From contig JARUPZ010000002.1 in assembly GCA_031213475.1 (NCBI GenBank), positions 12,472,951 through 12,536,950 on the forward strand: a stretch of 64,000 nt of DNA. The letters run 5' to 3'. The translations under genes were made by a program, and so were the position numbers. Within the stretch, counting starts at the first letter, position 1; each line of letters opens with the position of its first letter. Origin of the DNA: Nereocystis luetkeana. Taxonomy: Eukaryota > Sar > Phaeophyceae > Laminariales > Laminariaceae. Positions 470 to 54,160 of this stretch are shown here, one piece after another. The notes below the pieces were generated by a model that saw only the letters and a program-made list of their open reading frames with translations, had not been told where the DNA came from and searched no databases.

Positions 470-3400
470 GGTGAAGACCCGGCAGCATGTGAACCCCTTG
501 GCCTCCAACAACCAGGAACCCGCGGTGCTGCTGGAAGGGTGGTTCAAGGCAGCTTTCCGGGAACCCTCGGCACCCCTGATGGTGGACATCGGTAAGGGAA
601 AGACATAATAAAGCCTCCCCCGGTGGGAAGAAAAAAGCCCCCCCCCCACGGAAGGGGAGTTATACTGGACGCGTACACGGCCGCGCAAGGCGTGCGGGTG
701 TTTTTTTTGTGTGTGTGTTTACCGCGCGGAGCCGCTTCAGAGCTCGCGTGCACGCCACGCAAGAAAACAGCCAATACGGTCACCAAGCGGTTGTGCTTCG
801 AATGTAAATGGCCTGAGTTTTCTGTTCGTTTTTGTTTTGTTTCTATTAACAGTTGGCGCTTATACTACCTGTGCGGAGACTCGTTGTGCGCGTCTTTTCG
901 TGACCAATATATTCCTATATATAATATATATTATCATATATATATGTATATTTGCAATGATGTATGTGAGAGTAGCGTCTGCAACAACAACCACAACAAC
1001 ACCCAACCATAACAACAACCACAACAACACCACCACCATCGCGAACAGTTCACCTCAACCCGAGCCAAACACATGCACGACGCACCAAAGCACAGCGCCC
1101 AACGCGTACCCGCGCGATTTTTTTGCTATTGCTTCTACAATTTTAGCCACCCACCATCCAGCATGCTCGACGCGCGCTACGAAAGGGGCGCTGCACCTTT
1201 TTTTGGGCAAACCGTTTCCTGCTGATGGCATGCTTCATCTAAGGAACTACCCAATGCATCGTTGATCCCATGTTCGTTTTGCAGTACAATAATTCGAACT
1301 CGTTGATCCCATTTTTATTTTGCAACTTAACGGTTTGGACAATACCTACTGCTGTAGGATAGGCCGAACTGAAGCGCTCCATGTTTTTTTTTCTGAAAAA
1401 CAAACAATTTTTGAGGGTATATATATAGGTATAGAGAGAGAGGTCAAGTGAGGAAGAGCCTCAGAAGTAGTAAGGTATGCACCACCACCGCTACCGCTAC
1501 CTTAGCTCACTGTTGTCCCCACCTTCCTTGCCCCTTGGCGCTGAGCAGGCTGCGCCAAAGGGTCGTTCTTGAGGTCCATGGCGACGAAGCGGCCGGGGCA
1601 GAACTACCTGGGGCTGGAGATCCGCCGCCCCACGGCCGCGGTGGCCTTGGAGCGGATGGTGGAGATGGGTACCCGCAACTGCTACCTCGTGTGCTGCAAT
1701 GCCAACGTGAGAGAGGGGCGAGAAAAGGGCGTTTACGGCAGGGGGTACCAAACAGGGGTCAGGGGTTCAGGAATGGCTTGGGTAGGGGGGGGGGGGAAGG
1801 GGTGATCTTGGAGAGGATGGTGTCGATGGGAGCCCGCAACAGCCACCTCGTGTGCTGCGACGCCAACGTGAGGTAGTGGAGGGGGAAGGCGTTACGATAG
1901 GGGTTAGGGGTTGGGTTGGAGGGCGGGGGGCGGGGGGCGGGTCGACAGAGCGGCAAAGCTTATTCTATCTTGTGTACGCGAAGGGCCCGGGGGGGAAGGC
2001 TGGGAGCGGGGGGGAGGGAGAAACTTGGGAATGCACTGGGAGAGGGAGGCGGCGGCTAGACTCGGGAGGAGACTACATCGGCTGGAGCAGGTTTTCAGGC
2101 CCCGTTTCCCGCAAAAAGTGCCGAGAAATGATTCCGAGGGGGGGGGGCTTCATTGGGAGAGGGGGCCGGAATGCGTCGAGGCCACATTCGCCGGTGACGC
2201 TGATGGAAGGTCCCCTCACGGCGCGTGGCACCAAACGCGCTGCGGTGGCTGGCATGATTTCGCTTCCATTTGTACTGTTGTTGGTGCCGTCAGTACGTAT
2301 TAGACGACGTGTAAATATCCGTTGACCCCGTCCTCCACAAATCTCGTTTCGCGGCTCTTCCCCCCCCCGGCGTGCTCCGTCCCGGCGTTGCAGGGATGCG
2401 AGAGTATATGGTCATGTACCTGGTATACGACTATGGTCTATCCTTGACATGAGTACAGCCCCCCCTTCCCCCCCCCCCCCCCCCTCCCCCTCGCAAGAGC
2501 TTGATTTTATGATTTTTTTTTTTGGCTTCGTCCGCCTGCCTGCTTGCTTGCTTGCCACCTGACGACTTGCTGCCTGCCTGCCTGCCTGCCTGCCTACTTG
2601 CCTGCAATCACCCAATTTACGACACCTTCGCCAACTAGGTTGATTTGGACGCCGTGCTCACGGAAGCAACGCGGAACGGCGCTTCGATCGACACCGTGTG
2701 CATACAATTCCCGGTAAGCCTGCCCCCCCCCCCCCTCCTCTCCCCCCCTCCCCTCCCTCCCCCGTCGTCGCATGGCAATGACGAGGGCGATATCGCTCGG
2801 GTACGTTGTCGCCCCCTGTCGCCAATGACCAAGAGAGGCGGGGAGATCGGCCTCAGCACTGAGGGGGTACGCATTAGAAACTGCTCGGGGTTAGGGGTTC
2901 GGGGACGGGCGGGGGGGGGTGTACTCATGTCATGCATGGCCGTAGTCGTATGACGAAAGACCTCGCATCCCTACAATGCCAGGGCGGAGAACGCCGGGGT
3001 TTCAGCGACCAGGCAGGCATTGCATTGCACTGCCTCACTAAGCGCGAAGACCGCGGCGCTCCTCCTTTCCCTATTTTCCGTCCCCCTGAATTTCTTGAAA
3101 TGCTGGGTGAAAAAGACGTGGGGAACTTTCTGTGCGGGGACTGGGACTATTATCTCAGGGCGTCTGGGTTTTATCGTGGGTTGTGTTTTTGTTCGGGTGG
3201 GTGTCGTTGGGTATGCAGGTGCGTTCCTTTTTTTAGGGCGAGGGGGGTGTGCGTCTTTCTGTGACCAAGCACCTCGCCCCCGCCTACCTGCAATTTCGGC
3301 AGTAGGCCTATAAGGCAGACGCAGCTGCTTCGGTCGAATTTTTTTTGTTGTTGTCACCTCACGAGCGCGGCGTGAAAAGTGCAAGAATAAGAAACAACGA

Positions 3401-6400
3401 AAAAGTGTTGGGAGACATAAATTAGCCTCTTCTTGAGTTTCTCTCGAGGGATGGATTGCTGTCGCGAGCTGTTGCGTCGAGGGAACGAGACCGGGCGGCG
3501 TTTGCCTCCATCAGCACCGTGAGCGAACACGCGGCTGCCCCTCTGCCCCCCTTGTTTCTGGTCGTTCGACTCGCTTTGCCTTGTGGCGCAGGACCCGCAC
3601 TTCAAGACGAAGCACTACAAGCGACGAGTGATGCAGGTGAGGTCGCTGCTGGTGTGCGATGCGGGGTGTGAAATCGATGGAAAGTGTTTGGCTCGGCTTG
3701 GCTTGGCTTGGCTTGGCTTTTCTTGTATCGTCTCGGTCCCGTTTGGTGTCGTATTGTCTTGTCTCATCTCGTCGTGTCTTGTCTCGTCATTTCGTGTCTC
3801 GACATTTCTTGGGAGTCTCTTGCTGTGTTGCCTTGTCTTGTCTTGTTCGATGCTGTAATATATTGTCTTGTGCTATTCAGCCTTGCCTCCTCGTACCTTA
3901 TCCGGTCTTGCCTTGCCCTGCCTTCTCGTACCTTATTTTGTCTTGTCTTGCCTTGTCTTTTCTTTTCCTATCCTGTCTTGTCGTGTCTTGTCTGACGTTT
4001 TTGTCTTGGCTTGTCACAGCCGGAGCTGGTTACCTGCATCGAGAAACACCTTCGACCTGGGGGTACCCTGTTCATGCAGTCCGACGTCTTGGACGTAGTC
4101 CAGGACATGCGCGTCATCACGCGGGAAGCAGCAGGTACACTAGTTGGTCTTGAAAGCTGTATATATGCGTCCAACATATCCCCCGTACAGTAACGCGACG
4201 CAAATATAGTACCAGGGTATTCCCCAGTGTCTGCAGTGTTGAAGCATATCTGCGTCCTCAGTCCTGAGTTCTTTCAACCTAAGAAGAAAACAAAAATCGT
4301 AACTACCCGTCAAGACGACTTGCTTGCAGCACTATGACGGGGAGGCATAGTAAATAGGACCAAAAATTGGAAGTAAAAATAGGTAAATATATAGGTTTTT
4401 GTGTGTACCATAGGTCCTATATTTCATAGTCCCCCGTGATAAGAATCTAGCGCCTCGTACGTCGCAGGCTAGGGAATGTGTTGTCCGGGACGTTGACGAA
4501 AGAGTTTTGTGCTACGAGTATCTACCTCCTGGAACGTCCGTGGAAGGAACGCTTTGCAGATTGAAATGTTGAGTACGTTGAAGGACAAGATGCCCTGCCC
4601 GGCGCGGAGGCATGCTGTGAACGGCGACCACGCTCCGCTGTCTGTCCGCTTGAAGAGACGTGTTTTTCGCGCGCCTGGTGATGTTTTTGCCGCTTTTTTA
4701 GATAATCTCCCATTTTGTGTTTCAAATGTGTGTTCCCCCCTCCCCCCTCTATTTTCGTTTTGTGCGTTTGGTGTCGTGGTGCGAGGGAAAACGCCGGTTT
4801 TTATAGGAAAACGGATTTTTTTGTTTCAACCCCTTAAGGACTGCGCTCCCGTTTCGGCGACAGATCTAAACGCGCGCTACGTATATATACGACAGACAGA
4901 CGCGTTCTATACCAGGGTATACGATTGGGGTATCAATTTTTGGCCAAGAACTTTTCTGATCTGGATAGAGTTTCCCAACTGAGTAATCAACTACCCAAGC
5001 ATCATGTGCAATTTGTGCTTTCCGTGTAAAAGGCATTGGGCGTTTGTGCAAAAGGTGCTCGCACGAACATATTTCGTTCGAAAAAAAAAAACTGAATTTT
5101 CGCACAAAAATACAAAAATACGTGTACATGTGTACCGTTTGTTTTGACGAATCGTTTTCGTTACTTGACCCAGGGCATGGCGCATTCGTTTTGCTCTTCG
5201 GGGTCAAGGGCGCATTTTTTCGTGAAAGCCAGTGTTTTGGGTAAAGGTATACAGAGCTCCTCAAAACGAGGAGCCCTCAGAAAATGGCAGGTGCACCCCT
5301 CTGTACCGTAGCGAAGGCGTCGATGGGGGAACACACTACTGTACCTTTTTTTGGCGAAAGCATCTCTGAACGACGGGGCTCCTCCTCGATTGAGGATTTT
5401 ACCTACCCAAATGCCTGTTGGGTTCCCGTCATTAGTGTGTGTGTTTACTGTATTGATCGTGATGAACCCAGGCTACACACGGGTTAGTTCGTCGGCAGGC
5501 TACACACGGGTTAGTTCGTCCGCAGGCTACACAAGGGTTAGTTCGTCGGCTTCGGCCTTCAATTTATCTCAAAACCTTTGGGCGAGGTATACTATAGTAG
5601 TATTTAATAGTATAAATAAACCTCCTCAATCGAGGACCCTCAGAACAATAAATAGGTGCGACTTTTTACCGTGGCATGCGTTATTACTTAAAAAATAGAG
5701 TTGGTGCGTTTCGGTACGGTGCAGGAATAAATGGATTATTATAAACGGTGCCGGGTTGTCGCTGTTGGTGGCAACGGAGCAACCCTAGTGCCCTCCCCCA
5801 TCGCCGCTCCCACCAGCCGACGTTCTCTACGTATCTCGACCCTTGGCGCCCGGCGTCGCCGGCCGATGTTCTTTCGTGCCCTCGTTATTTTGTTGGTTGT
5901 AGTTTCATCTGTGTTTTACTTTGTTTTGTGTTGTCCCCCCTCTCCTACTCTCGGTACCGCCTGATTTCAGAGCTGCTCCAAGACTCTAGGCCGGACATGG
6001 ACGATTGGATGGAAGGGCCGGACAATAATCCGTTCGGGGTGAGTGCGCGGTCCTGTTTTTGATGTGTTTGTCGTTCGCTCAGCGGCGGTGGTGGTTTGTA
6101 CACAGCATGCAGTTATCTCTCTCTCTTCATCTCTCCCCCTTTCTGCTTAGTTTATTTGTCTACGTGTCTCTGTGTCTTGTGTCTCTGCCTTTCTGTCTGT
6201 CTGCCTGTCTGTCTGTCTGTCTGTCTGTCTGTCTGTCTGTCTGTCTGTCTGTCTGTCTGTCTGTCTGTCTGTCTGTCTGTCTGTCTGTCTGTCTGTCTGT
6301 CTGTCTGTCTGTCTGTCTGTCTGTCTGTCTGTCTGTCTGTCTGTCTGTCTGTCTGTCTGTCTGTCTGTCTGTCTGTCTGTCTGTCTGTCTGTCTGTCTGT

Positions 6401-54106: not shown

Positions 54107-54160
54107 AGAGGGGGGGTGTATTCATGTTCATGCGTGACCGTGGTTGTATGGCCATCAGTG
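54107..54160 (-). repeat. Diverged 3'-end fragment of the poly(C)-tailed element
   Basis: On the minus strand: GATGGCCATACAACCACGG, TCACGCATGAACATGAATAC, then ACCCCCC. Weaker match than other fragments. Confidence 0.55.

Follow-up and report, generated by a model that had tools for sequence, protein, structure and literature searches.

What kind of element leaves copies that share one 3' end, start at differing points and so often lie between two runs of C? The question is raised by a 64,000-nt stretch of the Nereocystis luetkeana genome (contig JARUPZ010000002.1, positions 12,472,951 to 12,536,950; hereafter the window), in which 13 copies of a short element, on both strands, end in GAGTAC-(C)n and begin at different internal positions. 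We regard it as probable that this element, which resembles a short interspersed nuclear element (SINE), and a long interspersed nuclear element (LINE) with the same 3' terminus retrotranspose as a pair into poly(C) tracts, many of which are their own tails, the LINE presumably mobilising its short companion.

A dispersed short element with a constant 3' end

A reading of the window from its letters alone (the sequence-only reading) had listed 13 copies, and all of them are present close to where it placed them, with a common 3' end and differing starts (Table 1). Some of its details needed adjustment: the copies placed at 10711, 14672 and 47489 begin about 12-26 bp earlier when the sequence is read, the copy at 50132, described as near full-length, is about 46 bp short at its 5' end, and the proposed tail range of 8-30 C was roughly right but is in fact slightly wider, from 6 (copies I and M) up to 34 (copy J). 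The shared 3' end reads ...GGTCATACGACTACGGCCATGCATGA...GAGTAC, with variants, followed by C. The consensus of the element is about 515 bp, TATTTTATATAGG...GAGTAC plus the C run; it was built from the 12 of 20 full-length copies that fitted the extraction pattern, while the frame and codon-position analyses described below used all 39 full-length copies.

When a model of the 13 copies was searched against the window with nhmmer, all 13 were recovered at E <= 1e-6. Two weak matches on the minus strand, 53682-53616 (E = 5e-5) and 39948-39896 (E = 0.014), were identified as 3' termini of the partner LINE, and three further matches (E 0.84 to 5) were taken as chance. The first 15 matches all extend to model position 501 or beyond, so that the 3' end is constant and the 5' end variable. 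In the 465-Mb assembly the copy at 14672, used as a query, matched many dispersed copies. A 30-nt pattern from the 3' end had 3,612 exact matches, 3,036 of them followed by NCCCC, and a 24-nt pattern from the 5' end had 531, of which 359 stand directly after CCCC; the reversed-pattern controls gave 0. The surplus of 3' ends is what 5' truncation would produce, although the two patterns are not equally long and variants of the 5' end are common. Among 30 loci taken in genome order, 4 begin at the 5' end of the element and 26 elsewhere. Both the window search and the genome copies thus support the earlier proposal of a dispersed retroposon with a gradient of 5' truncation and a fixed, C-ended 3' terminus, and target-primed reverse transcription would be the simplest account.

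The 12 full-length copies of the consensus set differ from it by 7-15 substitutions each over about 515 bp, which indicates recent movement; for the 30 copies in genome order the match to it is 70-94%. In some younger copies, for example at window 15147-15170, the final word is doubled (ATCGAGTACATCTCTCCTATCGAGTAC), while in others it is single, and the doubled form seems to mark a later subfamily. The exact 27-base 3'-end pattern had no match in viral contigs.

Poly(C) on the 5' side of the copies

The sequence-only reading had taken poly(C) as the 3' tail of the element. It is a tail, but not a tail alone, since C runs, overlooked in that reading, also lie 5' of 12 of the 13 copies. With hand-set starts, a C run of at least 5 occurs within 25 nt 5' of the start in these 12 copies compared with 3.5% of random sites (binomial p ~5e-17); nhmmer starts again gave 12/13, and a G run of 5 was found in 0/13. 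The exception is copy H. Elsewhere in the genome, a 5' C run precedes 38 of 39 full-length copies and a 3' C run follows all 39, these being the best-scoring matches to one young copy (copy B), a choice that favours young copies. Among the 30 copies in genome order, which are the first 30 of one 3'-end pattern that itself requires a 3' C run, a C run lies within 40 nt of the start in 21 and a G run in 1; random stretches drawn from those loci have the C run in 8.5%.

The enrichment extends outward. C content exceeds the window mean in outward bins on both sides of the copies, and the next three 10-bp bins beyond the 5' run hold 48, 39 and 35% C against a mean of 26%. Since copies truncated at differing points nevertheless have C on their 5' side, the element itself cannot encode all of this C, which most likely marks the insertion target. 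The bias of C over G at the 5' side places the sense strand of the element on the C strand. C runs are found on both sides of copies in a fixed orientation, as expected of a simple-repeat-targeting retrotransposon.

Long C runs are themselves abundant. The window contains 45 C/G runs of at least 10 against 0.14 expected, which excludes chance, and for 29 of the 45 the nearest recognised copy is over 40 nt away. This suggests that C tracts exist independently of the elements, with the qualification that the 29 distant runs may include decayed tails; we infer that the tracts pre-date most insertions.

A LINE with the same 3' end

The sequence-only reading had advised a search for a LINE-like element sharing the 3' end, and such an element, with endonuclease (EN) and reverse transcriptase (RT) domains, exists in the same genome. 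Together with the two weak window matches, a related 34-mer with 964 exact genome matches defines another family that likewise ends in GAGTAC-C, and at one locus (L105) a decayed RT lies upstream of it. A 60-aa piece of that RT gave 1,299 first-look candidates in the genome, of which 150 were scored. When 19 of these 150 matches, picked by eye, were set against all 40 listed LINE 3' ends, in at least 18 of the 40 an RT fragment lay on the same strand, 494-553 nt upstream.

One copy of the partner, at locus L106, was read. Its 921-aa RT frame matches RVT_1 (PF00078; 2.8e-28) and a second frame, of the AP-type endonuclease, matches Exo_endo_phos (PF03372; 6.2e-13), the combination that distinguishes a non-long-terminal-repeat retrotransposon, or LINE; a 138-aa frame had no Pfam match. 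The stop codon of the RT frame is the TGA of TGAGTAC, overlapping the terminal GAGTAC, and poly(C) follows. This copy therefore has practically no 3' untranslated region (UTR) and ends in poly(C), and a very short 3' UTR with a simple-repeat end is, in this one copy, as in the RTE clade. The 3' ends of LINE and SINE-like element align with a score of 66, compared with a best of 40 in 1000 letter shuffles; the last ~120 nt are alignable, and the final ~60 best.

As in other LINEs, truncation at the 5' side is combined with a constant 3' end, for 20 LINE 3'-end copies start at differing points. The set omits L084 and L085, which duplicate the window, and matches that were better explained as the SINE-like element or fell short of the 3' end were removed. 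One of the 20 had insufficient flank; among the remaining 19, a C run lies within 40 nt on the 5' side in 14 and a G run in none. In seven of the 20 fragments (window 53683 and 39962; L003, L035, L086, L087 and L092) the start falls in one 5-base interval about 65 nt from the end, representing either a preferred stop or a tiny separate element.

The most abundant EN-RT LINE that we met (e.g., L064 and L070-L073) was the first candidate for the partner but was rejected, since it terminates in (AC)n and the match of the SINE-like consensus to it is limited to poly(T). It is about 4.7 kb long, carries an unbroken frame of ~1,250 aa in many of 150 scored copies and has a G11 tract in its 3' UTR. 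A palindromic repeat of ~110 bp starting CTATTACGGGGG, which looks like a miniature inverted-repeat transposable element, occurs at window 4328-4441, 39085-39382 and 57677-58088 and at many other loci; one copy of it disrupts the endonuclease frame of L106.

Classification of the short element

The element is short and numerous, as judged from its 515-bp consensus and 3,612 exact 3' ends, and a LINE in the genome has its 3' end in common with it, both of which are traits of SINEs. On the other hand, the best match to box B of the Pol III promoter was no better than in shuffled sequences, and the window with its 13 copies gave neither an Rfam match at gathering score nor an ARAGORN tRNA call that would indicate a head derived from tRNA, 5S or 7SL. 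Since no Pol III promoter was found, we term the element SINE-like rather than a SINE.

The sequence-only reading had also stated that no coding frame is present. For long open reading frames this stands, the longest open stretch in six frames being 91 aa, but a short frame in the 3' half shows an excess of third-position changes. This 81-aa frame (consensus nt 274-516) runs up to GAGTAC, and across the 39 copies its codon positions 1/2/3 hold 52/50/83 changes, unlike two other frames; the changes were counted per sequence and not per event, so that shared changes inflate the counts. A share of 0.40 of them is synonymous, where a simple model predicts 0.27. The stretch may code, or may once have coded, for a protein.

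Proposed mechanism and competing explanations

Insertion of the pair into poly(C) can be envisaged as follows: (i) the LINE enzyme would bind the shared 3' end of the short RNA and nick the G strand within a genomic poly(C)/poly(G) tract; (ii) the G-rich 3' end so exposed would pair with the C run of the RNA and prime reverse transcription; (iii) reverse transcription would often halt early, giving 5' truncation, and the unfinished end would be joined to the remaining half of the C tract; and (iv) the insertion would thus come to lie between two C runs, sense on the C strand, with any target duplication hidden in C. No target-site duplications were seen by eye outside the C run, and with both cuts inside the C tract none would be visible. 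What is shown is the structure of the copies; nicking and priming are inferred. Each new copy would leave a C run that could serve as a fresh landing site. A wider proposal, in which the pair matches its own C tail to a mononucleotide target and, by feed-forward, the elements and the long C runs of the genome have grown together, is a serious possibility that we advance only tentatively.

Nesting of the elements bears on this scheme and on its main competitor alike. At L106 a 5'-truncated SINE-like copy stands directly after the LINE's C tail, and at L026 and L035 LINE pieces follow the tails of the short element; most LINE 3' loci were fetched via the short element or its 3' end, so that nesting is over-represented among them. 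Full-length copies with a SINE-like or LINE piece within 150 nt number 23 of 39 (27 of 78 flanks), compared with 1 of 200 random stretches of the window. Such clustering supports landing in older tails. It also fits with C tails acting as a mere trap, in which C-ended RNA pairs with any exposed G run without endonuclease specificity and copies pile up in earlier tails; the 23 of 39 copies near other pieces led us to weight this explanation up and that of poly(C) targeting down. The mutual nesting and the high frequency of C tracts, as judged from window data, also favour a trap. We nevertheless consider it unlikely, although it deserves real weight, as 16 of the 39 full-length copies have no SINE-like or LINE piece within 150 nt, only 6 of 39 have a GAGTAC-C tail within 60 nt upstream, and the flanks at five insertion sites matched once only in the assembly.

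Another way to obtain C at both ends without any target is to suppose that the LINE has no preference for poly(C), the 3' C being the tail of the RNA and the 5' C non-templated bases added, as G on the cDNA, when reverse transcription ends. Terminal base addition by reverse transcriptases is known. The 5' tracts, however, are often impure, the excess of C continues tens of bases past the run, and in copies F and L and in the SINE-like copy at L106 the 5' run can be seen to be the tail of an element that was there before, all of which make this account improbable. Spread of segments between C tracts by recombination or template switching at poly(C), without retroposition, would likewise place both ends in poly(C); we hold it to be very improbable, because truncated copies begin at positions without a C tract in the parent, the copies keep a constant 3' end and a LINE with an RT carries that end. 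A DNA transposon, Helitron or satellite would also be short and present in many copies, but it would hardly show variable 5' ends with a single fixed 3' end; the consensus ends, TATTTT... and ...GAGTAC, are by eye not inverted repeats, and the copies are dispersed and not tandem, so that its chance is negligible.

Several observations count against insertion of a LINE-driven pair into poly(C). Of the exact genome matches, 576 of 3,612 3' ends lack a following NCCCC and 172 of 531 5' ends do not stand directly after CCCC, and a 5' C run of at least 5 is absent from 9 of the 30 copies in genome order and 5 of the 19 LINE 3' copies. That this LINE moves the short element is argued from the shared 3' end, and the endonuclease frame of L106 is interrupted by a 111-bp insertion (a repeat). 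Empty sites were sought with joined-flank queries at five sites, chosen from 18 of the 23 flank pairs that survived filtering since their flanks looked free of these elements; only the filled loci matched, each flank at its own locus. The G11 tract of the (AC)n-ending LINE, tried as a further empty-site test, gave one match, which proved to be a fragment of the partner LINE and not of the short element, with the other half of the site missing, and hence no clean case.

Relation to known elements

The closest parallel by description is RTEX-N1_Ec32 of Ectocarpus, a non-autonomous element of about 600 bp that, with more than 6000 copies, is the most abundant family there; its 3' end is like that of the autonomous RTE-X LINEs RTEX-1_Ec32 and RTEX-2_Ec32, and its 5' part is of unknown origin (PMC12477816). 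Ectocarpus LINEs, too, are often 5' truncated (PMC12477816). The element described here is similarly short, non-autonomous and abundant, with a 3' end common to LINEs, a likeness drawn from the published description (PMC12477816); by this analogy it is probably of the same kind and may be of the same family. The main-text passages on RTEX-N1_Ec32 mention neither poly(C) nor a target, which Fig. 1C (terminal motifs) or the supplements may show (PMC12477816), and the C motif may already have been noted by the curators of brown algal repeats.

RTE LINEs of Lepidoptera are described as having EN and RT, an extremely short 3' UTR with simple repeats and many 3'-terminal fragments, and as inserting without sequence specificity, with target duplications of 6-12 bp (PMC2887409). 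The partner LINE resembles them in build, a likeness of architecture; in RTE-clade LINEs the repeat is reported for the 3' side, whereas in the partner LINE and the short element a C homopolymer lies on both sides (PMC2887409). Insertion in simple repeats is also known from Dong, in (TAA)n, and TRAS, in (TTAGG)n (both cited in PMC2887409), and from Togen, in (TG)n (PMC4640811). The present pair is like these three in its apparent insertion into a simple repeat and unlike them in that this target is a poly(C) homopolymer, used by a SINE-like partner as well (PMC2887409, PMC4640811). A literature search limited to open-licence PMC text found no report of poly(C)-tailed or poly(C)-targeting retroelements. 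The pair is ordinary for its class, and what is unusual is that a C homopolymer serves as its tail and, lying on both sides, apparently as its target.

The simple-repeat-targeting LINEs of the cited papers use di-, tri- or longer repeats (PMC2887409, PMC4640811). If our interpretation is true, tail-guided target choice would be seen here in simple form, with a LINE and its short passenger both using a C homopolymer as tail and target. The abundance of long C runs in the window could be explained in this way, and the pair would offer a clean system for asking whether the tail, the endonuclease or both pick the site.

Features of the window

Table 1. Positions of the short element and of LINE 3' fragments in the window
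Feature	Position	Strand	Remarks
Copy A	10685..11206	+	Near full-length (nhmmer start 10703); 5' side C17; 3' tail C-rich
Copy B	14649..15195	+	Full-length; 5' side C14-T-C9, 3' C16; genome query
Copy C	47478..48021	+	Full-length; 5' C7, 3' C17
Copy D	50132..50618	+	Lacks ~46 bp of 5' end relative to consensus; abuts C7
Copy E	15593..15867	-	Half-length; 5' end abuts C10
Copy F	53341..53603	-	Half-length; immediately after C tail of LINE 3' fragment
Copy G	40328..40518	+	5' end abuts C11
Copy H	2911..3056	-	Sole window copy without 5'-side C run
Copy I	15436..15503	-	~60 bp
Copy J	46318..46388	+	~37 bp plus C34
Copy K	2366..2484	+	Start within or beside C9 run
Copy L	39818..39880	-	~55 bp; after C tail of LINE 3' fragment
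Copy M	54107..54160	-	~45 bp
LINE 3' fragment	53604..53683	-	~65 bp plus C tail; long C run precedes
LINE 3' fragment	39882..39962	-	With C tail
LINE 3' fragment	41263..41389	+	~110 bp; 13-base C run at end

The window holds several other features. At 56813-57452 a 293-bp unit is repeated in tandem and contains GTGAGTTCGAATCTCACGCCC, which by eye is like a tRNA T arm, and ARAGORN called no tRNA there. Long imperfect palindromes occupy 23954-24057, 27766-27862 and 31645-32025, with a self-complementarity of about 71-86% over 98-401 bp, and TGTC repeats with 95% matches extend for ~790 bp at 6165-6955. On the plus strand, 34722-35096 contains a frame that, by eye only, resembles part of a sulfate transporter.

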